A stretch of DNA of 37,006 nucleotides from positions 1-37,006 of the forward strand of contig PLHQ01000051.1 of the NCBI GenBank assembly GCA_003138975.1, written 5' to 3'. Each line of letters begins with the position of its first letter. The stretch's first letter is position 1. The stretch is from Acidobacteriaceae bacterium. GTDB taxonomy: Bacteria; Acidobacteriota; Terriglobia; Terriglobales; Acidobacteriaceae. This document shows, in pieces, positions 9,372-35,984 of the stretch. Made by a program: the position numbers and the translations under genes. The notes beneath the pieces were generated by a model. It ran no database searches. It had not been told where the DNA came from and saw only the letters and a list, made by a program, of their open reading frames with translations.

Positions 9372-11921
9372 CTATTCGCTCGGTTCGAGGTAACGCCGAG
9401 GAGACGGGAGAATCACCGATCCGCTGACCGCGATCGAAAATGTCTTTCCTGCGGATATGCCATCAAGGCCCTCAGCGGTGAACCGCACTTTGTAATTTCC
9501 GGCAGCAGTATACGCGTGAGTGAGGATTGCGCCATCGGCGACCACTCCATCGCCGAAATCCCAATGACAGGCGAGCGTTGGGACTCCGTCTTTAGACACT
9601 ATGCTGGAGAGCTCAATTTCTTCCCCAATTTTTGCTTGAGACGGTACTTGGAAGGCAATCGAGGGCGCGGCCATCGGGATCGAAGTATCAATAATCTTGA
9701 TCAACTTGACTGAGTGCGCGGGTTGATTGTCCAGGCGGAGCGTTTCGTGGTCCATGGCCAACGGCCGATCTTGAGCTAGCGAGTCAAATAGCTTGTACGA
9801 ATGCTCTGCGGGAAGCTTCAAATCGGAAAAAGTGAGAATGTGAGAACTCGACTGCTCCGTCCAGTTAAAGACTGCCAAAATGGACTGACGCTGGTCTTCG
9901 CGCAGCAGAAAAACGCTCGGCTGCTCATCCTTATCTGCAAAAGTCAGGAGATCTAGAGGCAAAGCAGCGCGTCCAAGTTTCGCCATTGCGAGCAAATCTG
10001 GATTCTTGACCAATGCCACGCGTTCCGGATCACTCCCCAGTGTTGGGAGGTCGTCGCCAATTTCGAACATTCCTCCAGAAACTGCCGCCAGAGCGATCGA
10101 GACCTGAGCCTCATTCAATGTGAGTGGAGCTTGAATGGTTCGCTCTTCAAGCAGTTGCCGGGAAACTGTGAACGCGTCCGGGTCATCGATGAAAAAGTTG
10201 CGATGCATGTAATAGCGCGCCGCGATGCCCGGCTCAGCTTCCTTGCTGCGCAGAAACGCATGACCTGTATCCTGGGATATACGACCTTCATCCACCAGGC
10301 CAACAGGGTTCAACATGGGACTGCCATCTTTATCGAGCAGCACGTCTTCGCCGACTGTCTTGCGAATAATCTCGAGCCCAATTCGCTGCGCCTCAAGTGC
10401 CGTTGTGTTCGGACGATGGTAATAACCCTCGATTGCCGTGTTGTCCATGAAGTCGAGCTTAATGTAGCGCGCACCCCACTCCCGGACCAGCGTGCGATAG
10501 GTCTGTCGAAGATATTCCTGGGCATCCGGATGAGTGACGTCTAAGACGAACAGGGGTTCACCCTCCACCTCTTCGGCCTTTCCAATCGAAATCGGATCGC
10601 CATGTGCGTTATGCACCAGCCAATCTTTATGGTGTTCGTAAATCCAGGCCCGCTCACCTACTTCAAAGGGAGCCGTCCAAACTCCTACCTTCAATCCCAA
10701 TCGGCAGATGCGGTGAGTAAGATCCCACATGCCACCTGGAAATTGAGATGCATTGGGCGTCGCATATTCACTGCGAGAGTATCCGTAACCCAGGTCGAAA
10801 TGAAAATAGTCGTAACCCAGTATCTTCAAGTGCTCGGCCAGCCATTGAGCATTGGCGAGCGCGGCGCCTTGCGTGATTTTTGTATAGAAGGCCGTCCAAC
10901 TCCACCATCCCAGCATGTTGTCTGCGGTAACCCGACTGTGATGCAGTTCCCGAATTGTGGCACCGTAATTCTCAAGTTGCGAGTGGTAGCTTCTTCCGGC
11001 GGCAAACATCACGCGTTCTGAAGTTATTGATTCGCCTGCGGGAAGAGGAACGCTTAATTCAATCAGGTTTTCCGCAGGCCCTTCTCGCAGACCGGATTCT
11101 GGATCGGTCGCTTGTATCTCAGTAGTTCCAGTTGAATCAACCGTGTATGAAGCGATGCTGGGGCCATCTGGTGATGAGGATTGCGTTTGCAAATGAATGA
11201 TAGTGAGGAAGCGGCTGGAAGTGAGAGCCCCCAAAAACAGGCTCTCCGTGCTATCCCGGTTGTAGATAAGTTGGCTGCCTACGGCGCGGTGCATGCCCTC
11301 CGGAGCTTTTCCTAAAGTGTAAATCTGCAATGGCGGCCAGTCTTCGCTGAAGCTGTCCGAGAGAACTCGGTTGCTCTTCTGCGTGCCGCTGAGATCGATA
11401 ACTTTGTTTCCGACGGCTTCGACGCTTCGGATACTTTGGATTGTTACCGGATTGCCTGTGTGATTTTGTACTTCAGTCTCGATGACACCAAAAGCTCTCC
11501 CATCATAGATTTGCAATGTATATGCAAGATCAGGGAAATTCGGAAGGCCGGACGAAGTGACTGTTATTTTCTTGCCGTGTCCGAGAGCATCCTCAAAACT
11601 CGATTGAGATATTTCATGTTTCGGATAATCGGTCGATTTGACCCATTTGTGATCGATCTCTGCTGCCACCCTTGCGTGAATGACGCTGTGTCCGCCATTT
11701 TCTGTTTGGATTTCATATGTGCCATCGCTCGGCTGAACGACCACAGACAGACCCTCGGTATGAGCAACTGCCTGAGAACCCCGAGCCGGGTCAGAAGAGC
11801 CCAGACAGCCTTCAACTAAGATCAGCAAGCAGGCTATCAAGAGACTTGCGATCTTGACCTTGCGGATTTTTCCGGCCCATGCTTTCGGCAGCCGAAAACC
11901 ACGACAATTATGCTCAATCAT
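9372..11921 (-). CDS. GH36/27-like alpha-galactosidase lipoprotein with PKD domain
   Basis: 849 residues. The N-terminus has a basic region and hydrophobic core ending in ILVEGC, a probable lipobox with Cys about 39. A beta-sandwich (to ~330) is followed by a TIM barrel of the clan-D glycosidase type: GWWSWTAFYTKIT, YDYFHFDLGYGY, KVGVWTAPFEVGERAW. The predicted nucleophile is D490 in RYIKLDFMD and the acid/base is D551 in RISQDTG, both as in GH36 enzymes. A beta domain and a C-terminal PKD fold (HWDFGDG, then THAYTAAGNYKVRF) close the protein. ATG 11919-11921 has AGGAGGA 5 bases upstream. It lies 53 bases after the permease gene on the same strand and is likely cotranscribed. Substrate alpha-galactoside or a related alpha-linked sugar, by family only. 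Confidence 0.8.
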   Translation of the reverse strand: MIEHNCRGFRLPKAWAGKIRKVKIASLLIACLLILVEGCLGSSDPARGSQAVAHTEGLSVVVQPSDGTYEIQTENGGHSVIHARVAAEIDHKWVKSTDYPKHEISQSSFEDALGHGKKITVTSSGLPNFPDLAYTLQIYDGRAFGVIETEVQNHTGNPVTIQSIRSVEAVGNKVIDLSGTQKSNRVLSDSFSEDWPPLQIYTLGKAPEGMHRAVGSQLIYNRDSTESLFLGALTSSRFLTIIHLQTQSSSPDGPSIASYTVDSTGTTEIQATDPESGLREGPAENLIELSVPLPAGESITSERVMFAAGRSYHSQLENYGATIRELHHSRVTADNMLGWWSWTAFYTKITQGAALANAQWLAEHLKILGYDYFHFDLGYGYSRSEYATPNASQFPGGMWDLTHRICRLGLKVGVWTAPFEVGERAWIYEHHKDWLVHNAHGDPISIGKAEEVEGEPLFVLDVTHPDAQEYLRQTYRTLVREWGARYIKLDFMDNTAIEGYYHRPNTTALEAQRIGLEIIRKTVGEDVLLDKDGSPMLNPVGLVDEGRISQDTGHAFLRSKEAEPGIAARYYMHRNFFIDDPDAFTVSRQLLEERTIQAPLTLNEAQVSIALAAVSGGMFEIGDDLPTLGSDPERVALVKNPDLLAMAKLGRAALPLDLLTFADKDEQPSVFLLREDQRQSILAVFNWTEQSSSHILTFSDLKLPAEHSYKLFDSLAQDRPLAMDHETLRLDNQPAHSVKLIKIIDTSIPMAAPSIAFQVPSQAKIGEEIELSSIVSKDGVPTLACHWDFGDGVVADGAILTHAYTAAGNYKVRFTAEGLDGISAGKTFSIAVSGSVILPSPRRYLEPSE

Positions 11922-11974
11922 GAATTCCTCCTGCTGTGCGTGGAACTTGCTACGGCGGAACGTCGATTTGCCTC

Positions 11975-13342
11975 TCACTCAGAATCCTGACTTGGGTTGA
12001 AGGGCCATGTAGCTTTCCACTTCGCCCAGATGAAGAAAACCAGAACGCCGGTTAGTAGCGTCAATAATCCGATCTTGATGTAGAGCCAGCCTGAGGTCAG
12101 AAAAACGTATGCCCATCCAAAGAAAGCAATGACAATGGGGACGGGATAAAACCACATCTTGTACGGCCGCGCGCTGTCTGGAAACTTTCGTCGCAAGAGT
12201 GGAATCGCAAATAGCTGTCCGAGAAACTGGACCAAAATTCTGGTAGTGATCAACGCACTGACAAGCTGATCAAGTTTAAGGAACGCGGCAGCAATAGATA
12301 CACCGCCCAGAACCAGAAGGGAAACTTGCGGATAGTTTTTCGTAGGATGCAGTTGCGCAAACGGACGGAAGAAATAGCCGTCGATGGCAGCCGCATAAGG
12401 AATGCGCGAATAACCCAGAAGAAGCGCGAACACAGAGCCAAAGGCCGACCAGAGGATCAAAATTGTTACCGCGATTGCGGCGCCCCTGCCGTATAGGCGC
12501 TCCATGAAGTCAGAAACGATGAAGTTCGAATGAATTCCTTCCCGCCACGGCACCACTCCGATCAAGGCGAGATGCAGCGCTAGGTATCCTACACAGCAGA
12601 TTGCCAGCGAAAACAGAATCGATCGCGGCACTACGTAGGAAGGATTCTGCACTTCGTCACCGATGTAGCACACATCGTAATATCCGAGATAGTTGTACAC
12701 AGCGATCAGGGTAGCGCTGCCGAGACCGAGCACGAAGCCACGATTGAAGGCCATCGCTCCTGGGGGAAAATCGAACGCCCTGTGGGCATTGAAGTGAGGG
12801 AAACCGGTGACGATGACGGCTACCATCGCCAGCACCGTGCCAATCCAAAGAGTGAGCGTGACCTTGCTCAAAAATGTGATCTTTCGGCACAAGAGGAACA
12901 AAGCAACAAGGCCTGCGGCAACCGCTATGTATTGCTGGCCTCGACCGCTCAATCCTGGCCAGAGATATGTAGAATAGTTTCCAAATCCGATCATCCCGGA
13001 TGCGATTTCCAAAGGCCCACTCAGAACGAATTGCCAGATGAAAAGAAAAGCCATCAGGCGACCCCAACTTTGATGGCCGTATGCCTCGCGAAGAAAATGG
13101 TAACTACCGCCGGAGCCTGGCAACGCCGCCCCCAGTTCGCTCCATATCAGACCATCGGAAATTACGATGAGCGCACCCGTCAGCCAGCCCAGCATGGATT
13201 GCGGGCCGCCCATGGAAGCCATCAATAGTGGGATTGTGATGAAAGGCCCGATCCCAACCATGTTTGACATGTTCAGGGCCGTGGCAGGAAGTAAACCAAA
13301 CGCGCGCGTCAGGTGGGGGTGCGTTTCAGTCTCCATTGCCAT
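11975..13342 (-). CDS. APC-superfamily permease (amino-acid/polyamine type)
   Basis: 455 residues with about twelve hydrophobic helices. The first carries the APC signature for unwound TM1 (ALNMSNMVGIGPFITIPLLM, close to the GxGIF motif). Next comes SELGAALPGSGGSYHFLREA, the standard TM3 region. APC proteins carry amino acids, amines or amine-modified sugars. Here the gene is first in a unit with a secreted glycosidase and shares its promoter type with a sugar operon, which is unusual for a plain amino-acid carrier. FrlA (fructoselysine permease) is a known APC member that carries a sugar-amine, and is the nearest precedent. Start at ATG 13340-13342 or 13334-13336. Specificity undetermined. 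Confidence 0.8.
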   Translation of the reverse strand: MAMETETHPHLTRAFGLLPATALNMSNMVGIGPFITIPLLMASMGGPQSMLGWLTGALIVISDGLIWSELGAALPGSGGSYHFLREAYGHQSWGRLMAFLFIWQFVLSGPLEIASGMIGFGNYSTYLWPGLSGRGQQYIAVAAGLVALFLLCRKITFLSKVTLTLWIGTVLAMVAVIVTGFPHFNAHRAFDFPPGAMAFNRGFVLGLGSATLIAVYNYLGYYDVCYIGDEVQNPSYVVPRSILFSLAICCVGYLALHLALIGVVPWREGIHSNFIVSDFMERLYGRGAAIAVTILILWSAFGSVFALLLGYSRIPYAAAIDGYFFRPFAQLHPTKNYPQVSLLVLGGVSIAAAFLKLDQLVSALITTRILVQFLGQLFAIPLLRRKFPDSARPYKMWFYPVPIVIAFFGWAYVFLTSGWLYIKIGLLTLLTGVLVFFIWAKWKATWPFNPSQDSE

Positions 13343-13506
13343 GGGCGTGCAAGATCGTAAAAGTTCTAGGCTGCATCACAGCGATTCCTTATGCAGAAAG
13401 ATCCCATAAGCATTCGCTGCGCTCGTCTTGCTGAGCTATTCGTTTTGCCGCTATGCCGTTCCCTTCACTCCAATGCGGGTCGCGTCACTCACCTTACAAT
13501 TGCGCG

Positions 13507-13550
13507 AATCTACCGACAGCTTGCCCGTTTGTCAATTAGATTGTTTGTTT
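13507..13550 (-). promoter_or_regulatory. Promoter of the permease/glycosidase unit, regulon copy C
   Basis: On the minus strand TTGACA (13535-13530), a 17-base spacer and TAGATT (13512-13507) are followed by CGCGCAAT. Upstream of the -35 lies ACAAACAATCTAA. The whole block closely matches the promoter in front of the TonB receptor: 13 of 14 bases agree from the -10 onward, TTGACAAACG is identical, and the upstream tract is 9 of 13. Transcription would start near 13500, about 160 bases before the permease. A DeoR-type regulator is the natural candidate to bind the upstream element. Confidence 0.75.
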
Positions 13551-13673
13551 CTGATCGATTGTGACTCCTGGAGGTACACTTTTTGCGGTACAAATCGTCC
13601 ACATCCCAAATACAATTGGTGCCGCGGAGCCACCGATCCGCGCCAGGTTGGGCAGCCAGGAGAGCCAGACATT

Positions 13674-14495
13674 ATGCTCGCAGAAGAGCGCAGATTTCGC
13701 ATTCGAGAGATCCTTTCCGGTCAACGCACCATTACCGCTTCCGACCTCTGCGCTGCTCTGGGGGTTACCGCCGCCACGGTGAGGCGAGACTTGGCGGCTT
13801 TGGAGCAGGATGGCGTACTGGTCCGTTCGCATGGGGGAGCGGTTTCCAGGATGTCCAGCACAAACTTCCAACCTTCCTACGAGACTTTGTCGCATAGCCA
13901 CAGCGGCGAAAAGCATGCGATTGCGGTCGCGGCTGAACATTTGGTGCTTGATGGCGAGACTGTGTTTCTTGAGGGAAGCACCACAGTGTATGAACTTGCC
14001 TGCGGCTTAAATCAGCGGAACCGACTGACCGTCGTGACAAATTCTCCGACGATCGTTTGCCAGTTGCAGAGAAGCTCGGGTGTGACTGTCCTTTGCACCG
14101 GCGGCGATCTTCAAAAGGATACGTTCTACTTTTCCGGCGAATGGGCGCAGCGTGCGCTCTCCGAAATTCGGTTAGACAAAGCGATTTTGGGAGTGAGCGC
14201 AATCGATCTTTCGTATGGAATCTCGACCGCGAACCACGCCGAGGCACAGATCAAGAAGATGATCATGAGAGCTGCGAAGACCCGGATCGCGCTGGCAGAT
14301 CACAGCAAGTTTGGTACTCAGAGCTTCGCCTATGTCGGCCCGGTGGCGGACATCGACGTGCTCGTAACCGACTCCGGCACCGATCCAAAATACATCAAGG
14401 GCCTGCGTGAAGCGGGTGTCGAAGTTGTGGTTGCGGAATTGCAAGAAACGCGTAAAACACCGCACAAAAGAACACATGCGAACAAAACAGGTTGA
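13674..14495 (+). CDS. DeoR/GlpR-family transcriptional regulator
   Basis: 273 residues. An N-terminal winged helix (ERRFRIREILSGQ, TASDLCAALGVTAATVRRDL, EQDGVLVRSHGGAV) is the DeoR HTH. The C-terminal domain is the ISOCOT sugar-phosphate sensor fold: GETVFLEGSTTVYELA, LTVVTNSPTI, VLCTGGDLQKDTFYFSG, GVSAIDLSYGISTANHAEAQ, LADHSKFG. These regulators are usually repressors relieved by a phosphorylated sugar intermediate. ATG 13674 is chosen as it begins the HTH (MLAEERR) and has AGGAGA 10 bases ahead; the 82 codons upstream in frame are not family-like. Divergent from the permease unit and directly upstream of the aldolase operon, so it likely controls both. Its last codons contain the operator of the next operon. 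Confidence 0.88.
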   Translation: MLAEERRFRIREILSGQRTITASDLCAALGVTAATVRRDLAALEQDGVLVRSHGGAVSRMSSTNFQPSYETLSHSHSGEKHAIAVAAEHLVLDGETVFLEGSTTVYELACGLNQRNRLTVVTNSPTIVCQLQRSSGVTVLCTGGDLQKDTFYFSGEWAQRALSEIRLDKAILGVSAIDLSYGISTANHAEAQIKKMIMRAAKTRIALADHSKFGTQSFAYVGPVADIDVLVTDSGTDPKYIKGLREAGVEVVVAELQETRKTPHKRTHANKTG

Positions 14496-14520
14496 CAATC
14501 GCTCAAATGCGGGATAATTT
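14479..14520 (+). promoter_or_regulatory. Promoter of the aldolase-kinase-isomerase operon, regulon copy A
   Basis: CGAACAAAACA (14479-14489), two bases, TTGACA (14492-14497), a 17-base spacer and TAATTT (14515-14520). The -35 overlaps the regulator's stop codon TGA (14493-14495). The first start codon is 36 bases downstream at 14557. The CGAACAAAACA element is identical in the TonB promoter. Confidence 0.78.
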
Positions 14521-14556
14521 GAGTCCCGTCTTGGTTCAGCGAGGACGAGGGGAACT

Positions 14557-15384
14557 GTGAGCGATTGCGGCAAGAGGATTCGCTTGAATCGTGTGCTCGG
14601 AGGCTCGGAGCGCCGAGCCCTGGTAGTCGCTTTCGATCATGCTTTGGTACTCGGGCCGATTCCTGGGACTGAGGACCCATTACGAAAGATTCGCCAGTTT
14701 GCCCAAGCCAGAGTCGATGCATTGCTGTTGAACCTTGGGCTCATTCGTCAATTCGCAAACTCGACAATAGTCGGCCCAATACCAGCTCTAATTGCCCGCC
14801 TGGACTGGACAACCGTTTGGTCTGCGATTGGGCAAAACGGAAGTGGCGCGCTGCACAGCTCGCTTCTCGCACGCCCCGAGGAAGCGTTACGACACGGCGC
14901 AGATGCCGTTCTCACCTATCTCGTCGTAGGCACCGGTGATGCCGAGTTCGAGATGAAGGAGATCACTCGCAACGCGGAAATCGCCCGCGAATGTGAACGA
15001 GTTGGAATCCCGCTGATTGTTGAATCTCTCGCACGGGGGAAGGATGTGCAGAATCCAGGTGATCCCAAGTGGCTGAACCTCCACACTCGTATGGCAGCCG
15101 AGCTTGGTGCGGATGTCGTTAAGACGGATTACAGCGGGGATACAGCCTCGATGCATTCGGTGGTGGAAAAATGCCCTATACCAATCCTGGTGCTCGGTGG
15201 AAGCCGTCATGCCTCCGACAGACGTGCGCTTGATGTGGTCCGCGAAGTTGCGGCCGCAGGAGCGGCTGGTGTCTTCTTTGGCCGCAATGTTTTCCAAGCC
15301 GACAACATCAGCACATTTCTAGAACAGGCGCGTGCTGCTCTTGACGGAGCGGTGGCGGCAGAATTTCAAGCAATCCCAAGATGA
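14557..15384 (+). CDS. Class I DhnA/LacD/FbaB-type aldolase
   Basis: 275 residues. The barrel motifs of the DeoC/LacD/FbaB/LsrF group are present: RALVVAFDHALVLGPIPG at strand 1, ALRHGADAVLTYLVVG, RVGIPLIVESLARGKDV, and the Schiff-base lysine in ADVVKTDYSGD, followed by PILVLGGSR and GVFFGRNVFQ (phosphate-binding loop). These enzymes cleave or transfer on phosphorylated ketoses (fructose- or tagatose-1,6-bisphosphate, sulfofructose-1-phosphate, or HPD-phosphate for LsrF). Starts with GTG at 14557, with GAGGGGA immediately upstream. First gene of the operon; its stop overlaps the next start by four bases (ATGA). Substrate not resolvable from sequence. Confidence 0.82.
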   Translation: MSDCGKRIRLNRVLGGSERRALVVAFDHALVLGPIPGTEDPLRKIRQFAQARVDALLLNLGLIRQFANSTIVGPIPALIARLDWTTVWSAIGQNGSGALHSSLLARPEEALRHGADAVLTYLVVGTGDAEFEMKEITRNAEIARECERVGIPLIVESLARGKDVQNPGDPKWLNLHTRMAAELGADVVKTDYSGDTASMHSVVEKCPIPILVLGGSRHASDRRALDVVREVAAAGAAGVFFGRNVFQADNISTFLEQARAALDGAVAAEFQAIPR

Positions 15385-16562
15385 CGACATCGGGTTCCCA
15401 GGCCCAGGCAGTTTTGTGCGACAAGAATGTGATGGACGGTCGTCCCGGATTCCGCCTGCGGGCCGATTGGGGATATATTTCAGTTCTTGAGGGCGGTGGG
15501 CATATCTGCGCGTTGAATCTGAATGCATGTTCCGGAGTGAACCCGCTATGGCGGCCGCAATGGGCCACGATCGATCCATCCCAGTACGAGATTTCGAAAC
15601 ATGCTCGCAAGTACGGGCCTCCGCCGGACGGCAGGTTACTCTCCGGCATTGCCGGACATAGCCTCAGCTTTGATCAGTTCGGGCCGCCTTCCATAGAAGA
15701 AACAGCAGCGGGTCTCACCACCCACGGCGAAGCGCCCGCATTGAAGTGGAAGATCCAGAAGCAAGCGCAGTCGCCGAAGCCACAATTGCAATATGGTCTG
15801 ACTCTTCCCGAAGCTCGGATCAGTTTCAGCAGGAAGCTCACCCTCGACCGCGTGAATCCGGTGATTTATTGCGAAGAAGAGGCGGTCAACCTGAGTAGTT
15901 ACGACCGCCCCATTTCGTGGAACGAACATGTAACTTTCGGGCCACCGTTTCTGGAACCAGGAACCACCTGGTTCGACATGCCGGCAAAGCGGGCAAAGGT
16001 TTGTCCGACGAGCTACAGCCCTCGATTTTTTCTTCAGCCGGATTCCGAGTTTACTTGGCCCAACGCACCGACAAAAGATCGCAAGCGGATGAACTTGCGT
16101 ACTACGCCGGCACAGCGGTTCGGACACTACACAGCGCAATTGCTGAGTCCGGAACGTGAGATTGGTTTCATCGCGGCATGTAACCCTCGCCAGAAGCTTC
16201 TCGTCGTCTATGCATTTCGACGGGCAGACTTTCCCTGGGTGGGCAATTGGGAAGAGCGATACAACCGAACCCAAGCGCCGTGGCGAGGGAAAACGTTCTG
16301 TCGAGGACTGGAGTTCAGCACGACTCCGTTCTCTATTCCGCGGCGCGAAACGATCGAGCAAGGTCCGCTGTTCGGCGAACCAACGTATCGCTGGCTTCCG
16401 GCTAAATCCAAGGCTCAAGTTCGGTTTCTGATTTTGTTGGTTAAGGTGCCAGAGACATTTCGTGGCGTAGCGAGTGTTTCCGTTGCTAAAAGAAAGATCG
16501 ATGTTGTCGAGTCCGGAGCTCGTGGCCGGAAGCTTTCAGTCGCGGCAGACAAATTCCTGTGA
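15381..16562 (+). CDS. Aldose-1-epimerase-like (galactose mutarotase fold) protein
   Basis: 393 residues, no signal peptide. The central part shows the mutarotase-superfamily feature GHSLSFDQFGPPSIEE followed by LTTHGEAP (catalytic His in HGE), then a series of beta strands, and WNEHVTFGPPF in the second half, where the family has its H-E-H binding face. It resembles cytosolic members that interconvert anomers or remodel sugars rather than GalM itself, and I know no established function for this subgroup. Start ATG 15381 overlaps the aldolase stop by four bases, and the stop is followed directly by the kinase ATG, so these genes are translated together. Role likely in presenting the right anomer to the isomerase or kinase, by inference. 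Confidence 0.62.
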   Translation: MTTSGSQAQAVLCDKNVMDGRPGFRLRADWGYISVLEGGGHICALNLNACSGVNPLWRPQWATIDPSQYEISKHARKYGPPPDGRLLSGIAGHSLSFDQFGPPSIEETAAGLTTHGEAPALKWKIQKQAQSPKPQLQYGLTLPEARISFSRKLTLDRVNPVIYCEEEAVNLSSYDRPISWNEHVTFGPPFLEPGTTWFDMPAKRAKVCPTSYSPRFFLQPDSEFTWPNAPTKDRKRMNLRTTPAQRFGHYTAQLLSPEREIGFIAACNPRQKLLVVYAFRRADFPWVGNWEERYNRTQAPWRGKTFCRGLEFSTTPFSIPRRETIEQGPLFGEPTYRWLPAKSKAQVRFLILLVKVPETFRGVASVSVAKRKIDVVESGARGRKLSVAADKFL

Positions 16563-18125
16563 ATGGCGTCGATCATGAGTTTGCTTGCCATTGATATCGG
16601 TTCGAGTAGATGCAAAGCGGTGGTGTTTGCGCTGACGGGTGAGATACTCACACAGCACGCCTGCGCGTACACACCGGCTTTTCCCGCTCCTTCGCACGCC
16701 GAGATAAATCCCGAGACCTTTTGGCAGGCAGTCTGTCATTGTTCGCAAGCGGTGTCGAAGAATCTTTCTGATCCCGTCCGAGCATTGTGTCTGAGTTCGC
16801 ACGGCGAAACTTTCGTGCCGGTAAATGGACGCAACCAGCCAGTCGCTCCGGCCATTCTCAACCAGGACAATCGAGCCACGGAAGAAACGGTGTGGCTCGA
16901 AAGAACATTCGAAAGAAAGCGACTTTTCGAAATTACCGGCCTGGTCGCTCATCCCATGTATCCGGTTCCGAAATTTCTCTGGCTGCGTAAGCACCGACCG
17001 GACGTTGTTGCTCCCTCGGTTCGTTTCCTCAGTGTGATTGGTTATGTTCTTTCGCGATTGGGGCTACCCGCTTATATCGATTATTCTCTGGCCTCCCGTT
17101 ATCTGGCATTTGATATACGGCAGCGCCGCTGGTCCGAAGAAATTCTTGCCGCCACAGAAATAAGTGCCGAATGCCTGCCCATTCCTGTACCTGCTGGAAC
17201 GATTGCTGGAAAAATAGATGCACACGTTGCCAGTCAACTCGGCCTTTCACCCGGAACAATTGTTGTGATGGGAGGGCACGATCAACCTTGCAGTGCATTG
17301 GGAGTTGGCGCTATTGGTTCGGGCCGCGTGGCAGACTCAATGGGCACTTACGAATGTCTGCTGGCAGCTTCCGATCAGCCCTGCTTAACGGATGAGGCGC
17401 TTGCGGCTTCTCTCAACTCTTATTGTCACGTGGTTCCAGACAAGTTCGTTACGCTGGCATACTTCCCATCAGGAATCATGGTTAAGTGGTTCCACGATCT
17501 TTTGTACGCAGCAGCGTATGGTGAAGGCTCGCTCGCTCAAAACGGGGATCCATCGGACTCGGAGTCTATTCACTATGCGTCACTCGAACGAGAAGCACCA
17601 GCGGGCCCGACGGGTCTCTGCATTACTCCGAATCTGATCGGCACCTGCAATCCCGATTTCAATCCGCGTACACGTGGAATAATCTCTGGCCTGGGCCCGG
17701 ACACAACCCGCAGCCAAATTTACAAGGGCATCCTCGAAGGGCTCGCTTGTGAGCTGTCACAGATGACCGACATTCTGACAAATGCGGTGGGAGAGTTTCG
17801 GGACGTTTACGTCACCGGCGGAGGCGCGCGATCAGCTTTAGGTCTCCAGCTGCGAGCCGCTTTATCGGGCCGGGAGCTGCATGTAATGAAGTGTCCGGAG
17901 GCAGTGTGTCTGGGCGGAGCCATACTCGCCGGAGTCGCATGCGGGGAATACGGAAGCTTGCGAGAAGCAGTGGAGCTTGTAGTCCACGATGTGTCGACGG
18001 TATCGCCCGACCCAGCGCTTGCGGCAGCCTATGCACAACAAGCCAAACAATATCGCCATTTGCGTTCAGCGCTCACGGCGGGCGCAACCACCGAGAGTGC
18101 AATAGGCCGACAGGAGGAGCAGTGA
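16563..18125 (+). CDS. FGGY-family carbohydrate kinase
   Basis: 520 residues. N-terminal actin-like domain begins LLAIDIGSSRCKAVVFALTG (phosphate 1), then NPETFWQAV, and ALCLSSHGETFVPV. The second domain holds GTIVVMGGHDQPCSALGVGA (adenosine-side conserved HDQ), SGRVADSMGTYECLL and FRDVYVTGGGARSALGLQLR, the FGGY signature region. The family phosphorylates polyols, ketoses and aldoses such as xylulose, fuculose, rhamnulose, glycerol and autoinducer-2. ATG 16563 follows the previous stop with no gap; ATG 16575 is an alternative. The stop TGA (18123-18125) overlaps the GTG start of the next gene. A kinase in front of an aldolase and beside an isomerase-like protein argues for phosphorylation of a ketose. 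Confidence 0.85.
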   Translation: MASIMSLLAIDIGSSRCKAVVFALTGEILTQHACAYTPAFPAPSHAEINPETFWQAVCHCSQAVSKNLSDPVRALCLSSHGETFVPVNGRNQPVAPAILNQDNRATEETVWLERTFERKRLFEITGLVAHPMYPVPKFLWLRKHRPDVVAPSVRFLSVIGYVLSRLGLPAYIDYSLASRYLAFDIRQRRWSEEILAATEISAECLPIPVPAGTIAGKIDAHVASQLGLSPGTIVVMGGHDQPCSALGVGAIGSGRVADSMGTYECLLAASDQPCLTDEALAASLNSYCHVVPDKFVTLAYFPSGIMVKWFHDLLYAAAYGEGSLAQNGDPSDSESIHYASLEREAPAGPTGLCITPNLIGTCNPDFNPRTRGIISGLGPDTTRSQIYKGILEGLACELSQMTDILTNAVGEFRDVYVTGGGARSALGLQLRAALSGRELHVMKCPEAVCLGGAILAGVACGEYGSLREAVELVVHDVSTVSPDPALAAAYAQQAKQYRHLRSALTAGATTESAIGRQEEQ

Positions 18126-19504
18126 TCCAAGCCACAATCGGATTCGTAGTTTTTGGAGTTCACAAAGATGGTCTGAAAGACCCAATGGGCACCCCATTCA
18201 TCGATGACGCATTGGTTCAGCGCGCCAAGAGTGCACTGGTTGCCGCGGGTCTGAAAGTTATTGAGTATGGCGTTGTTGTCGCCAGCAAAGAAGAAGCTCG
18301 GGCCGCATTCAAGAAAATGAAATCCGACGATGCCATCGATGCGGTTGTCCTATTTTCTGGGACCTGGGTTTGGGCGGCGCACATGGTCGGCGCGATTCGC
18401 GATTATTGCGCAAGTGGAAAAGGCTTGCTTCTGTGGACGCATCCCGGCTCTCAAGGTTGGCGGCCGGTTGGCGGATTGGTGCTGCACGGAGGTTTGCTCG
18501 AAATCGGTGTCCCGCACAAATTTCTATACGGAAGCTTGGAGGAACCAGATACCGTAAGCAAGATCGTCAGCTATGCTCAGGCTTCATATCTGAAGAACTT
18601 CTTAAACATGTCTACCATTGGTACTTTTGGCGGTCGCGGGATGGGGCAAACCTGCGGCACCGCCGATCCTTCTCAATGGATGAGAATGTTTGGCATCGAT
18701 ATCGATTCCCGGGACACGACGGAGTTGAAGCAAACTGCTGAAGGAATCTCATCAAGCGAACTGGATCAGCTGCAGCCGAGGTTGAAGCAGTTGTTTGGCA
18801 AGGAACCCGAGCGAAACGCGGTGACCGAGCGCTCGATGCGTCTATATCTCGCTCTGAGAAAAGTTGTAGCGAGAGAAAAGTTTGATTTCTACACGATTCA
18901 ATCTTTTCCTGGTCTAGCCGGCGATTACTCTGCCACTTGCTTCGCTCAGAGCATGATGCTTGAGGATGGAGTTGGTACTTCTACCCTGGGCGATTTCAAT
19001 ACCGCTTTGACCGTTCTCCTGCTCACCAAATTGAGCAGGGAGAGAGTGTATTACGGTGATTTGCAGCACATTGACAAAAAAACAAGAGAAATCAAGATCA
19101 TCGGGGATGGCGCTTGTCCACCCTCACTGGCCAGCAAGCTGGGTCCGGCTGGCTTCTCTGAACACGGTATCCCTACGGAAGGCGAAGCCGGCGGCCTGTC
19201 TGTAAAGCTCACCTGCAAAGTGGGGGAAGGAGTACTGGCCCGGCTCGGCAGAGTGAACGGTGCGTTTCAAATGGTCATTACTCGAGCCAGCATTTTCGAG
19301 CCGGCACCGAATCAGATAGAAAAACGGCTCAACGAATGTGGCATCCCATTCTGGCCGCACGGTTTTGTGACCGCGCATTGTGACATCGACGTTTTGCTCC
19401 AGCATTGGACCAATGAATATGCATGCCTCGGCTACGGCGAAGAGCTATATCCGGCGTTAGTCGATTTTTGTGAGATCACGGGAATAAGGGCAATCCTTCC
19501 CTGA
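18122..19504 (+). CDS. L-fucose/L-arabinose isomerase-like protein
   Basis: 460 residues from GTG 18122. It has two Rossmann-like N-terminal domains (IGFVVFGVHKDGLKDPMGTP; AVVLFSGTWVWAAHMVG) and a C-terminal domain with FGGRGMGQTCGTADPSQWMR, DFYTIQSFPGLAGDYSATC, and HCDIDVLLQHWTNEYACLGY, in the style of FucI/AraA. Family enzymes are Mn-dependent ketol isomerases; several Glu/Asp and His candidate metal ligands are present (GDFNTALTV; EHGIPTEGEAGG) but the exact set is not certain. Ribosome site GGAGGAG lies just before GTG, inside the kinase gene, and the start overlaps the kinase stop (GTGA). Last gene of the operon. Many homologs of this type in soil bacteria have no assigned substrate. Confidence 0.78.
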   Translation: MIQATIGFVVFGVHKDGLKDPMGTPFIDDALVQRAKSALVAAGLKVIEYGVVVASKEEARAAFKKMKSDDAIDAVVLFSGTWVWAAHMVGAIRDYCASGKGLLLWTHPGSQGWRPVGGLVLHGGLLEIGVPHKFLYGSLEEPDTVSKIVSYAQASYLKNFLNMSTIGTFGGRGMGQTCGTADPSQWMRMFGIDIDSRDTTELKQTAEGISSSELDQLQPRLKQLFGKEPERNAVTERSMRLYLALRKVVAREKFDFYTIQSFPGLAGDYSATCFAQSMMLEDGVGTSTLGDFNTALTVLLLTKLSRERVYYGDLQHIDKKTREIKIIGDGACPPSLASKLGPAGFSEHGIPTEGEAGGLSVKLTCKVGEGVLARLGRVNGAFQMVITRASIFEPAPNQIEKRLNECGIPFWPHGFVTAHCDIDVLLQHWTNEYACLGYGEELYPALVDFCEITGIRAILP

Positions 19505-19617
19505 GCGTTCAATAGAGGGATGATCGATTCAAGGGGAACCTGACAGGACACGATGCGGGAGACAGACGGGACCGACCGAAGGATATCCCTGAAAAGGGCT
19601 GGGAAATGTTGGTGGCT

Positions 19618-20010
19618 ACCAGCAACCCGCTGAACCGCCGACGGAGGCGCGATTAGAGAGAGACTCGGACGGCCGAATTTGCTGGAACGGGCAAACGGCC
19701 ACCACGATTCGCGCAACATGCAGCATGGCGCGATTTACTTTTGCTTCCAGAAGATTCGGCGGGATCGGCCCACAGTGGATGTCGAAGCCATCGACGCCCA
19801 AGAAAAGAATGTCGGCATTCAGCGGCGCAATGTTTCTTCCGCAATTGGCCCAACCAGCGAAAAAGAATTCTTCCGCAGAGTCCCTCCTGTCAGAATTACC
19901 TCCAGAGACGAGCCGGCTCGTTCCGCAGCGATATTCACTGCGTTGGTGATAATCATCAGATTTTGATGATGGCGGGTGAAGAGTGCGAGTCAACTACAAC
20001 TGGCGAGTAT
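19618..20010 (-). pseudogene. Decayed second DeoR/AgaR-type regulator
   Basis: On the minus strand, pieces in different frames add up to the sensor domain of a DeoR/AgaR regulator, in order: VVVDSHSS (near 20000), LMIITNAVNIAAERAGSS, LEVILTGGTLRKNSFSLVG, then after a frame change NADILFLGVDGFD and EAKVNRAMLHVARIVVAVC, then after another shift RSSKFGRPSLSLIAPPSAV. At least two single-base frameshifts and a probable deletion break it, and the N-terminal HTH is missing. It lies immediately upstream of, and divergent from, the AgaS-like gene, the position usual for AgaR. It is therefore likely a regulator once dedicated to that gene, now lost. It explains most of the 726-base gap between the isomerase-like and SIS genes. 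Confidence 0.8.
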
Positions 20011-20140
20011 TCCTTTCTAACGTCATTAGCTTCGTTTGTCCATGTAAAAGAGCTCGGGCCTGACGACCGGCCCAAACCAGGGAAGGCATACCTAGAAGGC
20101 ATATCCAGACAAAAACAAGTCAGTCTCGCGTTTTTTCCGC

Positions 20141-20169
20141 TTGACTTCCGTACGAATCGCAAGTAAATG
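20141..20169 (+). promoter_or_regulatory. Likely promoter of the SIS isomerase gene
   Basis: TTGACT (20141-20146), a 17-base spacer and TAAATG (20164-20169). The start codon is 62 bases downstream at 20231. An AAAAACAAG stretch lies about 24 bases above the -35, only loosely like the CGAACAAAACA element of the other promoters. Confidence 0.5.
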
Positions 20170-20230
20170 TTTAAATACGTAATAATTCGAAAGCACGCCG
20201 AAACTGATCTTTGGCCGAGGAGTCTGTGGC

Positions 20231-21418
20231 GTGGATGCTCTTGCTAAACTGCTTGATCTTTCGAGAGAAGAGAAGATCGAACGCGGTCTGTTATACACTC
20301 CTGCGGAGATTGCCCAGCAACCTGCCACCTGGGAGTCAACATTCTCTATCTTTCAAGAACACCGCACGAGGCTTGCGGAGTTCCTTGGGGACGCCGGGTT
20401 CGGCGATCCCGTGTGTCCGAAACCAGTTGTTTTTCTCGTCGGTGCTGGCACTTCTGACTACGTGGGCAGAAGTCTGGTGCATTTGCTTCGTCGGCTCTGG
20501 AAGTGTGAAGTCATTGCCATTCCCAGCACCAGTCTCCTGACCCACGGGGAAGAGTGGCTGATTCCAGGTCAGAGGTACGTCTGGATTTCATTCTCCCGAT
20601 CCGGCGATAGCCCGGAGGGTGTGTCTGTCCTGGAAAAAGCTCTGGTGAGTCATCCGGATATTCATCACATTGTCGTGTCGTGTAACGCAGAAGGGCGGAT
20701 GATTCGTTGCACGGCTGGCAAACGACAAGCGTTCGCCGTTGCCCTAGACGATGCGGTTAACGACCGGGCTCTGGCCATGACCAGTTCTTTCTCTAATATG
20801 GTCGTATTCGGCCAGTGCATGGCGCATGTTCATAATTTCACACAATACGAAGCTATACTCAGCCAGCTTGTAGAAGCGGGAAAGACTTTCCTTCCACACG
20901 CCGCTGACGCCGCGGCGGCCCTTGCTGCAGAACCTTTTGAGAGGGTCTGTTTTATCGGATCGGGCGCGCTTGAGGGCGTAGCCGTTGAATCTGGGTTGAA
21001 GGTACTAGAACTGACTGCGGGCAGAATCCTGACCATGGCGGAATCCGCCATGGGACTGCGCCACGGTCCTATGGCAGCTCTCGACAAAACTACGCTGCTG
21101 GTTGCTTTTCTTTCGAGCGATGAAAAGGTTGCCCGCTATGAAAGAGATCTGTTGCAGGAACTCAAGCGGAAGCGACTCGTGAAAACTCAGATCGCAGTGG
21201 GTGGGCACTCCGGGCCGCCGTTGGATGGTTTCGCAGAGCGCCATCTTTCGCCGGACATTCGCACAGCGGTCCCGGATGATTGTCGTCCGCCAGTGGATGT
21301 CTTGTTTGGTCAGTTGTTGGGGCTGTTTTTCTCCTTGCGCTGTAACTTGAGGCCGGACCGGCCCAGCCCCGACGGCGTCATAAGCCGAGTCGTTCAAAAT
21401 GTGAGGATTTACGCCTGA
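20231..21418 (+). CDS. AgaS-like SIS-domain sugar-phosphate isomerase/deaminase
   Basis: 395 residues. An N-terminal helical lead (EEKIERGLLYTPAEIAQQP) matches AgaS proteins. Two SIS domains follow: first VVFLVGAGTSDYVGRSL with ISFSRSGDSPEGVSVL, second CFIGSGALEGVAVESGLKVL with MAESAMGLRHGPMAAL (the GLRHGP histidine loop). AgaS converts galactosamine-6-phosphate to tagatose-6-phosphate plus ammonia; relatives act on other 6-phospho-amino-sugars or Amadori compounds. GTG 20231 has GAGGAG 9 bases upstream. It has its own promoter candidate and sits between a decayed regulator and the TonB gene. With the aldolase, it would form the lower part of a galactosamine- or tagatose-like route, but this is inference. 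Confidence 0.83.
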   Translation: MDALAKLLDLSREEKIERGLLYTPAEIAQQPATWESTFSIFQEHRTRLAEFLGDAGFGDPVCPKPVVFLVGAGTSDYVGRSLVHLLRRLWKCEVIAIPSTSLLTHGEEWLIPGQRYVWISFSRSGDSPEGVSVLEKALVSHPDIHHIVVSCNAEGRMIRCTAGKRQAFAVALDDAVNDRALAMTSSFSNMVVFGQCMAHVHNFTQYEAILSQLVEAGKTFLPHAADAAAALAAEPFERVCFIGSGALEGVAVESGLKVLELTAGRILTMAESAMGLRHGPMAALDKTTLLVAFLSSDEKVARYERDLLQELKRKRLVKTQIAVGGHSGPPLDGFAERHLSPDIRTAVPDDCRPPVDVLFGQLLGLFFSLRCNLRPDRPSPDGVISRVVQNVRIYA

Positions 21419-21460
21419 TTCGCGCCGTGCGCCTCGGGGGGAGTATGAATCGATCATAAA

Positions 21461-21501
21461 CGAACAAAACAATTGACAAACGAGCACACTATGAGTAAAT
21501 T
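21461..21501 (+). promoter_or_regulatory. Promoter of the TonB receptor, regulon copy B
   Basis: CGAACAAAACA (21461-21471), TTGACA (21473-21478), a 17-base spacer and TAAATT (21496-21501), followed by CGCGCAAT. It shares CGAACAAAACA with the aldolase promoter and the downstream CGCGCAAT and TTGACAAACG with the permease promoter. Predicted start of transcription about 21508. Confidence 0.78.
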
Positions 21502-21507
21502 CGCGCA

Positions 21508-21720
21508 ATCGCAACCTTGCAGGCCTCATGTATCGCTTTCGCAGGTTCTTGTTTTGTGAAGCGCTGAACGGATCTTTCAGCGAGCGAGTGTAACGTTTCT
21601 TGTTTTGGTCGTGGAGAGTGGAGATGGTTTAAACGATGGCTCGTCGAGTGAAACGAAAGCCCGGCAAACGATAGTCCAGTAGGTAACGCAAGCATATTTG
21701 GCTCTCAGGGACGGTGAACG
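21508..21720 (+). other. Long 5' leader of the TonB receptor mRNA
   Basis: If transcription begins near 21508, the receptor mRNA carries about 210 untranslated bases. A possible stem GGCT/AGCC with an inner CGT/ACG lies around 21635-21660, followed by CCCGGCAAACGATAG and GTAGGTAACGC. No open frame with a ribosome site is seen. I could not match it to a known riboswitch with confidence. The ribosome site before ATG 21721 is weak (GGGACGGTGA). Confidence 0.4.
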
Positions 21721-24700
21721 ATGAAGAGAAAATTTCGGAACCTATTGCCAGCGCGTCGGTTCATTTGCTTCTCCCTCGGACTCATTCTGGTTTTCGGATC
21801 GACGATGCCTGTGTGGGCCCAATACACGACTGCGCGACTCAGCGGGATCGTCAGTGATCCATCGGGCGCAGTGGTGGCGGGAGCGACTATTACCGTTCAA
21901 GAGGTTGGGACGGGATATACGCAGAGCACAAACAGCACATCTGCCGGACAGTATCTCTTTCCCAGCCTGCCGGTCGGCACCTATCAGATCACGGTTTCAA
22001 TGGCCGGCTATACCTCTTATGTGCAAAAGGGTATTGTGCTGTCCCTGGGCCAGGCGGCCGCGCAAGATGTTCAACTGCGAGTGGGCAGGGTTGAACAACA
22101 GGTGGTGGTGAATGCAAATTCTTCGCTGGTTACCACTGACTCGGCCACCGTGGGGCAGCTGATTGATCAAAGGGAAATCAGCCAACTGCCGTTGAACGGA
22201 CGCGACGTACAGCAGTTGGTGTTTCTGGCGCCGGGGACTACCAACGTGACCGCCAATTATTGCGCAGCCAACTGCGAGGGAGGAGTATTCCCCAGCGAGC
22301 AGTATGCCAAGGTGAACGGAGGCGGCGCGAACGGAGTCAATTACCTGTTAGACGGCGTCGATGCCAACGACACCTACATCAACGCGAACGTGCCTTTCCC
22401 CAATCCTGACGCGATTCAAGAGTTCAATCTGATTACCGGGAATATGAGCGCCAGCTTCGGGAACGCGATCGGTGGCGTGGTCAACGTGGTCACGAAATCG
22501 GGAACGGACCAGATTCACGGAGATGTATTTGAATTTCTGCAGAACTCCGCGCTGGATGCCAGCGATTATTTTTCCCAAGGACATGTCAATCCGCTTAAGC
22601 AGAATCAATTCGGGGGAAGTGTCGGCGGTCCCATTGTCAAGAACCGCCTATTTTATTTCGGGAGCTACCAGGGAACGCGGTTCCGCACCGCGAACAACGG
22701 CCAGATTGCCACCGTTCCGAATGCGACCGAACGTACCGGGGACTTCTCCGACGTGCTTCCGGGTACGCAGTTGATAAATCCGACTTCGGGGTCGAACTAC
22801 ACCAATAATCAAATCCCCGTCAGCCCCGTCGCCACGTACATTCTGGACCATATCCCGCTTCCCAATGGACCCAACGATCAGCTTACCTTTAACGGTGGGC
22901 CGGACGCTCAGAACACCGATGAATACTTAGCCAAGGTGGACTTCAACATCGGGAAGCATCATCTGAGCGGTCATTACTTCCAGATGGGTTATACGGACCC
23001 GGTGTTTATTCCGCCTTCCACGAACCTTCTGGAACTCCGAGGCGATGCCGAACATCTCGTTCTCAAGAACGTGAGCGTAGTCGACATCTATACCATTACG
23101 CCCACCTTCTTACTGAGCAGCTATTTTGGATATAACAGCGAAAATGGCACCACCCTGTCCTCGGCTCCGTTCAGCATGGCAGATGCAGGCGTGAACATGG
23201 CAGTGCCGCAAAACCGTGGAGGGGGCGATGCCGCGGTTTTGAATGTGACAGTAAGCGGGGGCGGGGCCTTCATTCTACCGGGTACGCCGTATGGGGTGTG
23301 GAATCGCGGAGATCAATCGCTGCGCGAGATTGCCACCTGGATAAAGGGTAAGCATGAGGTCCAATTCGGCGGAGAAATTCTCCGGGTTCGCCTGCCCATG
23401 GGAAATCAGTACCAGGAAAGCGGAGTTTTCGACTTCGAGAATCTGACCGGCAATCCTCTGGCGGACTTTGAACTGGGAGCTGTGTCGTCGTTTACGCAGG
23501 GCGGAGGACTTTACCTGAATGTTACGGGATACAGAGAGAGCCTCTTTGCGCAGGACAGTTGGAAAGCCACCCCCCGTATGCTGTTAACCGCAGGACTCCG
23601 GTGGGATCCTTTCTTCCCCTATACAGACAGCGAAGGGCGGGTAGCTTGCTTCGTTCCGGGAGCACAGTCTCAGCGTTTCCCCACGGCCCCGGTGGGTATG
23701 CTGTTCGGCGGAAAGAACCACGATCCTGGATGTCCGGCCTCTTCCATTTATAACAATCCAAGAAACTTTGGACCGCGCTTGGGTTTTGCCTATCGGATTA
23801 CAGAAGATGGCAATACCAGTATTCGCGGCGGAGCGGGTTATTACTACGAGGCTCCAAACACGGTTGCGTTCGAGGATGTGGTGGGGGTTCCCCCGTTTGC
23901 TCCTATTATTAACGTAGGTTCCAGTCCAGGATCCCCGTTGGTGACCCTGGCAGATCCGTACGGAAGTTCCGGAACCACGAATCTGTTTCCGGGGCAGTTT
24001 GGTCCAACTAATCCAAGCCCGAGCGATGCAATTTTCCCTACTTCGGGTATTTCTTTCAGTCAGATATTCGACCGCCATTTCCGCTTACCCATGGTGCTGT
24101 CGTGGAACCTGACGGCGGAACACGGATTCAAACAGGACTGGATGTTGCGCGTTGCCTACGTAGGCAATAGTGGACACCATCTCAGCGGCACGGGAGACCA
24201 GGAAAGCGGCCTACTCCAATTGAATCCCTCTCATTGGGATCCGGTTACGCAGCAGGAAGTCCCCGTTTATCCTGCTTATGGATCGATCGCTTCTATCAAT
24301 TCCGGAGTCGACAGCAACTACAATGCTGCTCAGATCACGCTCACGAAGCGCATGACGCACGGCTTTTCTTTTCTGACCAACTTTACATGGGCCAAGGAAC
24401 TGGATGACTTCGCTCCAATAGGCGGGTCACCTTATTTGACCAATAGCTGCAGTTGCGGCCGCGATTTCGATTATGGCCCGTCCGATGACGATCTCTCGAA
24501 GACCTTCAAAATCAACGGTGAGTATATGGTTCCGCGCATCAGCCTGCCCAAGGCAGTCGACAAAATTGTGAATGGTTGGGAGCTTTCCGGAACGGTAAGC
24601 TGGCAGACTGGATTTCCGTTTACGATCTTTAGTGGGGCCGACAATTCTTTGAGCGGCATGTTAGGCGATCGGGCCGATCTGGCCGTGGCTAGCGTTCAGC

Positions 24701-35045: not shown

Positions 35046-35714
35046 TTAGAAGGTAAGCCGCGCGGAAAACTGCAGCACGCGGGGAAGTCCGTTGGGACTA
35101 ATTTCCTGCAATGCTCCGAAATTACCCGGTCCGGAATTGGGGACTAGATAGCACGTCTGATTCAGAGATGAGCCGTCGCCGCAGTTGGACCCTATGGGAT
35201 TGTATTGCAGCTGATTGATGCCATCGCCATTCTGCACGTAGTAATTGGCATGGTTGAACAGGTTGAATGCCTGAGCCTGAAATTGCAATTCCTTGCCTTC
35301 CTTGATCTCAAAGCTGCGGGCCAATCCAACATCAATTCTCTCCAGCCACGGGCCGTAGAAGGAATTCAATCCGATCCCGGGTGTGGGCCCAGCGCCATTG
35401 ATGCCGGCCGCGGTGTTTGCGGTGTCTTGATTGAAGGCGGTGTCGTTGAGGTCTCCATCGGCGCCGTCGCAATTGCTGAATGACAGGGTCGAACTGGTGC
35501 ACGCCGGGCTCAACAAACCCGCAAAAGGACGGCCCGAGGAGAACTCCATGACACTGCTCAACGTCCATCCTGAGAGCAGAACACGCCCTTTGTCGGACCC
35601 CGTGAGCTTTTCCAGTTCCGGCCGGTACACCGCGGCAAAACTAATTCGATGCCGCTGGTCTAACAGCAAAGGAGCATGCGTATTGCTGAAGTCGAACTGA
35701 TTATTGAAGTCCAT
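35046..35714 (-). pseudogene. C-terminal stub of a second TonB-dependent receptor
   Basis: About 222 residues of outer-membrane barrel: DFNNQFDFSNTHAPLLLDQR, WLERIDVGLARSFEIKEGKE and the aromatic end GLPRVLQFSARLTF. This is the tail of an Oar-like receptor of about 1100 residues, and the first 900 residues are gone. Upstream of ATG 35712-35714 the frame stays open for 44 codons, but the sequence is no longer receptor-like. It ends near the TPR fragment on the other strand, so the rest was removed by a deletion or insertion event. Confidence 0.72.
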
Positions 35715-35774
35715 CCCTCTAGCATCACGCTCTTGGCGAAGGTGTAAGAAAATTGCAAAGCAAGACCTTGTGAC

Positions 35775-35948
35775 ATGCGCGACTATGCCTTGGCGGGCGA
35801 AAAGGATAAGGCGTTCGAGTGGCTGGCAAAAGCCTATCAGGAGCACGACAGTGGGCTTGTACTTCTCAAAGTTGAACCAGAGTTCGACAACATCCGCTCG
35901 GACCCCCGCTACGCCGACCTGCTGCGCCGGATCGGACTGCCGCAGTGA
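35775..35948 (+). pseudogene. C-terminal stub of a TPR-containing protein
   Basis: 57 codons: DYALAGEKDKAFEWLAKAYQ and LLKVEPEFDNIRSDPRYADL before LLRRIGLPQ and stop. This is the classic last repeat and tail of acidobacterial TPR regulators (winged-helix or protein-kinase fused). No start signal or upstream part. Seen as a relic bordering the rearrangement at about 35,715-35,775. Confidence 0.7.
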
Positions 35949-35984
35949 GAATCAGTATTTGATTGGTCAAAAGGTATACCCTCG

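Follow-up and report, generated by a model that had tools for sequence, protein, structure and literature searches.

A conserved and apparently locally confined sugar regulon in an acidobacterium, with an operator of DeoR-family form

We analyzed a 37,006-nucleotide stretch of an Acidobacteriaceae genome (assembly GCA_003138975.1, contig PLHQ01000051.1, here contig C102; the genome comprises 5.45 Mb in 223 contigs), referred to throughout as the window. The nearest loci among named records come from acidobacterial metagenome-assembled genomes (MAGs), several of which are titled Candidatus Sulfotelmatobacter; record names such as palsa and peat soil hint at an origin in soil or peat. A gene for a DeoR-family transcription regulator (deoR) is followed here by an operon encoding an aldolase, a DUF4432-like protein, a sugar kinase and an isomerase; a permease and a glycosidase are encoded on the opposite strand, and a TonB-dependent receptor lies further downstream (Table 1). 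The promoters in front of the permease, the aldolase operon and the TonB receptor share a phased array of CGAnCA hexamers. They make up a conserved regulon, apparently confined to this locus, whose operator has the form seen in the DeoR family, and the DeoR protein is the best-supported candidate for the regulator of all three.

Table 1. Promoters, operator units and genes of the sugar locus (window coordinates; scores in bits with model cut-offs where given).
Feature	Coordinates	Strand	Units, boxes or supporting matches
TonB operator-promoter	21451..21507	+	units CGATCA 21451-21456, CGAACA 21461-21466, CGAGCA 21481-21486, CGCGCA 21502-21507
TonB promoter core	-35 TTGACA 21473-21478, -10 TAAATT 21496-21501	+	sequence
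Permease operator-promoter	13501..13557	-	units CGATCA 13557-13552, CAAACA 13547-13542, CGGGCA 13527-13522, CGCGCA 13506-13501
Permease promoter core	-35 TTGACA 13535-13530, -10 TAGATT 13512-13507	-	sequence
Aldolase-operon operator-promoter	14469..14520	+	units AGAACA 14469-14474, CGAACA 14479-14484, CGCTCA 14500-14505
Aldolase promoter core	-35 TTGACA 14492-14497, -10 TAATTT 14515-14520	+	sequence
deoR, DeoR-family regulator, 273 aa	13674..14495	+	HTH_DeoR PF08220 51.4 (cut-off 21), DeoRC PF00455 157.1 (cut-off 31.8)
DeoC/LacD (DhnA-type class I) aldolase, operon gene 1	14557..15384	+	PF01791 113.6; PDB relatives MJ0400, LsrF
DUF4432-like protein	15381..16562	+	PF14486 27.1, under cut-off 32.5
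FGGY-family sugar kinase	16563..18125	+	PF00370 166.2 and PF02782 91, both over cut-off
L-arabinose/L-fucose-isomerase-fold enzyme	18122..19504	+	predicted model pLDDT 83.8, Foldseek
AgaS-family SIS protein	20231..21418	+	TIGR02815 274.7, under cut-off 529.2
TonB-dependent outer-membrane receptor (CarboxypepD_reg and OMP_b-brl_4)	21721..25071	+	PF25183 637.7, Plug 29.8
APC-superfamily permease	11975..13342	-	PF13520 117.4
Alpha-galactosidase-like glycosidase with PKD domain	9372..11978	-	Melibiase 44.1 and PKD_4 49.2, over cut-off; PDB alpha-galactosidases E 3.3e-29

The DeoR protein has both features that define its family, an N-terminal DeoR-type helix-turn-helix (HTH) and a C-terminal DeoRC sensor domain, the latter matching the structure of a deoxyribose operon repressor (7l6l, E-value 3.9e-9). 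The AgaR equivalog model NF040755 scores it at 194.7, under the cut-off of 260, and it is therefore not filed as AgaR. It is the sole transcription regulator recognised among the 25 window open reading frames (ORFs) scanned, out of 83 of at least 100 amino acids; one resolvase N-domain was recognised besides. Isomerase, kinase and aldolase are a standard sugar-breakdown set, and the DUF4432-like protein may be a sugar mutarotase. Judging from its predicted model, the isomerase-fold enzyme is presumed to be an aldose-ketose isomerase: the top Foldseek match is an L-arabinose isomerase (E 4e-27, TM-score 0.78 by query length, 16% identity), and matches 1-41 are all L-arabinose, D-arabinose or L-fucose isomerases (TM-scores 0.75-0.81 by query length, 13-16% identity). 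Its matches to Pfam and NCBIfam models, including SftI and AraA, all fall under cut-off (SftI NF048012, 64.6 versus 700). The enzyme is strikingly conserved, with proteins of 54-76% identity in MAGs titled Bacillota, Armatimonadetes, Chloroflexi, Lentisphaerae, Bacteroidetes and others; it is a sugar isomerase of wide distribution for which this analysis matched no curated family. The gene for the glycosidase, which we take to belong to GH36, shares 4 bases with that of the permease and is probably part of the same operon.

Each of the three promoters combines a TTGACA box with a 17-base spacer, as the original prediction had held, and all boxes were located in the sequence. The upstream element that it described as identical in two promoters and related in the third is CGAACAAAACA, exact at 14479-14489 and 21461-21471. 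The first copy does sit in the last codons of deoR: the aldolase operator-promoter overlaps the 3' end of this gene, the stop codon of which (14493-14495) falls within the aldolase -35 box. The agreement proposed between permease and TonB promoters over TTGACAAACG and CGCGCAAT is also present. With the -35 box left out, these two promoters are identical in 44 of 58 ungapped columns, including the -10 region and CGCGCAAT. No other of the 48,828 pairings of TTGACA-like sites within the window agrees as well (mean 14.7, standard deviation 3.4); the runner-up, with 43 columns, is this pair itself, taken from the complementary strands. Outside the array their flanks share 13/34 and 10/42 columns only. 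The likeness of the permease and TonB promoters exceeds chance. Aldolase and TonB promoters agree in 31 of 58 columns when the upstream part of the former is shifted by one base, and in 20 unshifted.

The shared motif is a real common element, but the unit that is repeated is the hexamer CGAnCA, not the 11-mer CGAACAAAACA. Decoded in these terms, CGCGCAAT corresponds to unit 4, CGAACAAAACA to unit 2 with an A-rich tail, and TTGACAAACG to the -35 box and the beginning of unit 3. Measured from the -35 box, which stands between units 2 and 3, the units of the permease and TonB promoters lie at offsets -22, -12, +8 and +29, so that the steps of 10, 20 and 21 bases correspond to one or two helical turns; the aldolase promoter has its units at -23, -13 and +8. 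Sites of the window and its relatives were aligned on TTGACA, giving 15 aldolase sites and 18 transport-type sites, the latter located before a permease, TonB receptor or glycosidase or in a glycosidase-deoR gap (L214); the permease site of L038 lay outside the position filter and was left out. In the transport type, mean matches to the five fixed letters of CGA.CA peak at +8 (4.5), -22 (4.0) and -12 (3.9), against 1.35 when averaged over offsets, and at least four letters are found at -22 in 15/18 sites, at -12 in 11/18, at +8 in 16/18 and at +29 in 10/18. None of 300 column shuffles reaches the observed periodicity of 10-10.5 bases, in a test whose hexamer was chosen from the same data. In a hexamer-free test, with each site's own octamer (+6 to +13) as the probe, lags 20 (5.22 of 8) and 30 (4.50) lead, and lag -21 comes third at 3.72, level with lag 16 (3.72; mean 2.21, standard deviation 0.79). 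The array consists of imperfect direct repeats with a period of 10-11 bp, near or over the promoter, which is the DeoR-family operator form as set out in passages of PMC3870299.

As a literal signature the motif is too short. The genome holds 5 exact copies of CGAACAAAACA, just the 2 in the window being followed by TTGACA within 3 bases, and AACAAAACA-NN-TTGACA at up to 3 mismatches gives 50 genome matches versus 62 in a reversed control; the phased array was therefore adopted in its place. Two further candidate elements were rejected. The 10-mer TGAGCGATTG at the aldolase start codon (14558-14567) is an exact inverted copy of CAATCGCTCA in the aldolase promoter (14496-14505) and was considered as a second operator. 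In the relatives examined it does not always follow changes in unit 3 (L040 has CGATCA at the promoter but GGGTGATTG at the aldolase start), so that coding constraint is the simpler reading. A structured leader before the TonB gene was also dismissed: the fold is weaker than those of shuffled sequences (z +1.67, 193/200 at least as stable), and the leader (21508-21720) has no Rfam match at the gathering threshold in a scan of 11900-22000. Upstream of deoR, at 13585-13618, a block TACAAATC...AAATACAATTG is kept in several relatives, as judged by eye; it holds a CGnnCA-like word and may be the deoR promoter.

To search the organism's own genome, we used two sequence-only profiles trained on relatives, to which the window did not contribute. 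R1 was made from 12 aldolase sites and R2 from 10 transport sites, of which seven belong to TonB genes, two to permease genes and one to a glycosidase gene. Of the first-look candidates, 1,868 in one scan and 1,712 in the other, the best 150 were fully scored in each. At E <= 10, R1 reports two sites, aldolase (6.3e-9) and TonB (0.00185), R2 reports the TonB (1.4e-12), permease (2.4e-9) and aldolase (3.82) sites, and neither reports anything else among the candidates scored. Since R1 reports the TonB site and R2 the aldolase site, each class of site points to the other. A motif common before unrelated genes genome-wide, which the original prediction had named as fatal to the regulon, is not what emerges: the relative-trained profiles report this locus only, among those candidates. 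A weight matrix of 23 distinct relatives' sites, one of them poor (L120) and the window (L116) left out, scores the window's three sites at 50.6, 45.7 and 44.5, with the next place in the window at 6.0. The AgaS-like gene has no high-scoring operator copy in front of it in this window scan, which yields three high-scoring sites only.

Array sites are conserved in orthologous loci. We surveyed the aldolase promoters of loci L036-L116 wherever 120 bp or more of upstream DNA was available. Of the 30 rows obtained, 13 have a DeoR ortholog immediately upstream, 4 have a divergent or remote one and 13 have none in the locus. Loci L117-L126 were left out, including L118, where unit 3 of the aldolase site is weaker (CAATCAATCT). 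All 13 promoters directly downstream of a DeoR ortholog score at least 35.8 with the weight matrix (12 are training sites, the window's is not), and null stretches, drawn from L073-L115 minus L085 and L098, reach a maximum of 7.3 (n=410). High scores are also obtained outside the training set (L215 41.6, L216 37.3, L217 45.2). Scores range from -0.9 to 12.9 where the DeoR ortholog is divergent or remote (L048, L061, L072, L075); by eye, L048, L072 and L075 carry CGATCA- or CGCTCA-type units about ten bases apart. Among permease orthologs whose upstream DNA was examined, those of the window, L036, L037 (one and the same record as L117), L038, L040 and L044 carry the site; that of L057, which directly follows the isomerase, does not. 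All six TonB genes examined with more than 80% identity carry it (window, L036, L038, L041 with TTGAGA, L044 and L217).

The same operator stands before genes that are not orthologous to those of the window. Transport-type sites precede TonB genes 27-39% identical to the window receptor in L037, L039, L043, L071 and L215, and a weaker one (score 20.2) precedes another TonB gene of this kind in L211. Genome G071 has a site scoring 21.5 before an APC permease 23% identical to the window's (start taken at L212:5059). In L213 (genome G165) and L214 (genome G112) the site points away from deoR; it lies between the glycosidase and deoR, and thus may serve deoR itself there. A site scoring 32.2 with TTGTCA in the -35 slot lies in G152 between deoR and a divergent dihydrolipoamide acyltransferase-dehydrogenase pair. 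G124 holds look-alike ORFs, recognised by eye, with a weaker site (19.4); the regions concerned are L209:2531-5268 and L218:3087-5877. Several deoR orthologs have an in-frame stop or are split over two frames (L040:6707-7519, L063:15602-16419, L127, L215:3091-3872), reflecting either decay or assembly error.

The presence of the operator can be compared with that of the regulator across 200 genomes of the family, in each of which the best 31 first-look candidates were scored. A DeoR ortholog of at least 69% identity is encoded in 12 of them (G000, G071, G082, G093, G112, G114, G124, G126, G152, G165, G172 and G192), the next matches being near 36%. Operator matches at E <= 0.01 are found in nine genomes altogether, 9 with R1 and 4 with R2, all within these 12 and in none of the 188 others, handles being the same across searches as far as listed. 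The best values without an ortholog are 0.017 (R1) and 0.035 (R2). Part of the R2 training sites came from G082 and G093.

We consider it probable that the three promoters are one local regulon and that DeoR represses all of them by covering them. The original claim of one regulator, most simply DeoR, is strengthened by the following: 1) restriction of the sites to the locus among the genome candidates scored; 2) their conservation; 3) their occurrence before non-orthologous targets; 4) co-occurrence with the DeoR ortholog; and 5) the direct-repeat form of the operator, to which DeoR is predicted to bind.

A number of observations weigh against this interpretation. In the own-genome scan the permease site is not reported by R1, and the R2 match to the aldolase site (E=3.8) is not significant alone. 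Unit 4 is weak, its mean of 2.94 at +29 ranking under that at +1 (3.0), though +1 never has four letters. The aldolase site is unlike the transport type in that its units 2 and 3 are 21 bases apart, unit 4 is missing and the base at +7 is T; at least four letters are present at +8 in 15/15 aldolase sites, and the upstream part is loose (-12 6/15, -13 6/15, -22 4/15). The permease ortholog of L041, separated from deoR by about 1.1 kb, lacks a site in the 330 bp shown. Among the 200 genomes, R2 finds matches in 47 and R1 in 37 at E <= 0.5, mostly without an ortholog, which we read as background. Three ortholog genomes (G114, G124, G172) have no match at E <= 0.01, and the R1 match in G152 (C182:14811-14839) points away from the adjoining TonB gene and has no nameable target. 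Four of the nine genomes matched by R1 (G071, G082, G112, G165) contributed sites to its training, and co-occurrence is due in part to deoR adjoining the aldolase promoter. A pure neighborhood effect is opposed by loci with aldolases 72-78% identical and no DeoR ortholog in the fetched locus (L045, L047, L058), which score at most 1.6, as do 11/13 of the aldolase promoters in loci without the ortholog. Two such loci, L049 (21.0) and L093 (16.4), nevertheless keep units 1-2, as would be understandable if their genomes carried deoR at another place.

These two loci also lend themselves to the explanation that a single regulator of all three promoters is another protein encoded elsewhere, with DeoR acting on something else. 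The genome does contain two further DeoR-family matches at E <= 1e-30 (e.g. C223:35092, 34% identity), and DeoR binding to the arrays is itself a prediction from sequence. We regard this explanation as quite unlikely: a global regulator should have sites elsewhere, and the profiles report this locus only among the candidates scored; the matches track the DeoR ortholog across the 200 genomes; no other transcription regulator was recognised in the 25 window ORFs scanned; and in three 34%-identical family members from other genomes the segment that we take to be the recognition helix differs (ISQITIRKDL vs VTAATVRRDL). A second explanation, very unlikely in our judgment, attributes the 44 identical columns of the permease and TonB promoters, -10 region and CGCGCAAT included, to a duplicated promoter segment, so that the likeness would be historical and not regulatory. 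The likeness stops at the array edges, however, and persists in relatives with different spacer letters, where the conserved letters are those of the phased units; the aldolase promoter has its units at another spacing, and non-orthologous genes carry the array. A duplication could moreover have spread the operator, and so does not exclude regulation. It is likewise very unlikely that the shared letters are an A-rich UP element with a consensus -35 box, making strong constitutive promoters without a specific regulator. The A-rich upstream elements do occupy the position at which the alpha subunit binds, and TTGACA matches the sigma-70 consensus. However, particular C and G letters recur at helical spacing, also in the spacer and, at many sites, past the -10 box, and among the candidates scored the profiles do not report the pattern elsewhere in the genome.

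Repression of the three promoters by DeoR would operate as follows. In each promoter an array of CGAnCA half-sites, facing approximately the same side of the helix, passes through the core region; with TTGACA assumed at -35, units 1 and 2 would lie near -57 and -47, unit 3 near -27, within the spacer, and unit 4, which many transport-type sites have, near -6. The N-terminal HTH of DeoR would bind these direct repeats and block RNA polymerase, whose exclusion is the simplest action because the array spans about -57 to -6 through the core promoter. A phosphorylated sugar from the isomerase-kinase pathway would then bind the DeoRC domain and cause the repressor to leave, whereupon the receptor, the permease with the glycosidase, and the aldolase-kinase-isomerase operon would switch on together. 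According to passages of PMC12632272, the effectors of E. coli DeoR-family repressors are typically phosphorylated pathway intermediates, and by this analogy the inducer here is likely the phosphorylated product of the kinase. Repression, as opposed to activation, is likewise suggested by analogy. Such a regulon offers a testable operator code for local sugar regulation in acidobacteria. It would tie the receptor, the permease, the glycosidase and the isomerase-kinase-aldolase pathway to one signal, and so narrow the search for the substrate. The regulon can evidently keep its operator while the transport genes beneath it differ among relatives.

The letters next to the -35 box raise the possibility that one DeoR-type repressor uses two grades of operator, set by gene function and not by descent. 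The base at +7 is T in 15/15 aldolase sites and in 0/18 transport sites: aldolase promoters read TTGACA-AT-CG(C/A)TCA, in transport and glycosidase promoters unit 3 is preceded by TTGACA-A(A/G), and many of these promoters carry a fourth unit over the -10 box or start. The transport side spans several unrelated genes; the aldolase promoters are mutually orthologous, and shared descent may therefore explain their side. The site in G152 before DUF4432-kinase-isomerase genes (L065 and L210, on the same contig) reads TTGACAAACGATCA, with transport letters. This site precedes catabolic genes and speaks against a split by function, and we hold the existence of two functional grades to be rather doubtful. 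If they exist and have different affinities, the genes for uptake and for breakdown would be induced one after the other in a set order, and receptors or permeases new to the regulon would take on the transport grade. Away from the sugar genes, at 35046-36647 on the minus strand, a resolvase N-domain protein adjoins a 266-aa ORF that covers positions 646-815 only of the 838 of the OMP_b-brl_4 profile, possibly a mobile-element edge with a receptor remnant.

In the literature searched, acidobacteria together with DeoR gave one rhizosphere-microbiome paper. The regulators compared here are from other bacteria. The two-domain architecture of the window's DeoR is the same as in GlpR and AgaR of E. 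coli. The half-sites of GlpR reportedly read CGAACA and are arranged as inverted repeats; the window array is made of direct repeats. DeoR-family RhaR sites are described in passages of PMC3870299 as direct repeats of 10-11 bp, and for RhaR of Chloroflexus aurantiacus these passages report an electrophoretic mobility shift assay on a 38-bp region in which the TCGAAA unit occurs four times in tandem. Like that RhaR as it appears there, whose operator is a tandem array of four short units, the window's DeoR would be a local sugar-catabolic regulator. Unlike there, the unit is CGAnCA and not TCGAAA, units 2 and 3 enclose the -35 box, and a TonB receptor and an APC permease are among the targets; the two regulators are likened by operator form, not by orthology. 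In Caldicellulosiruptor bescii, passages of PMC8579813 place DeoR-family sites in 5' untranslated regions or overlapping promoters, which is read there as repression. FruR, RhaR, UxaR and AxgR of that organism are likewise local sugar regulators, and the AxgR site is a tandem repeat, AxgR being assigned to the DeoR family in one passage and to the AraC family in another (PMC8579813). These are other regulators in another organism, and no TonB receptor is among their targets in the passages concerned (PMC8579813). The window regulon is a further case of the local regulation already known for the DeoR family.

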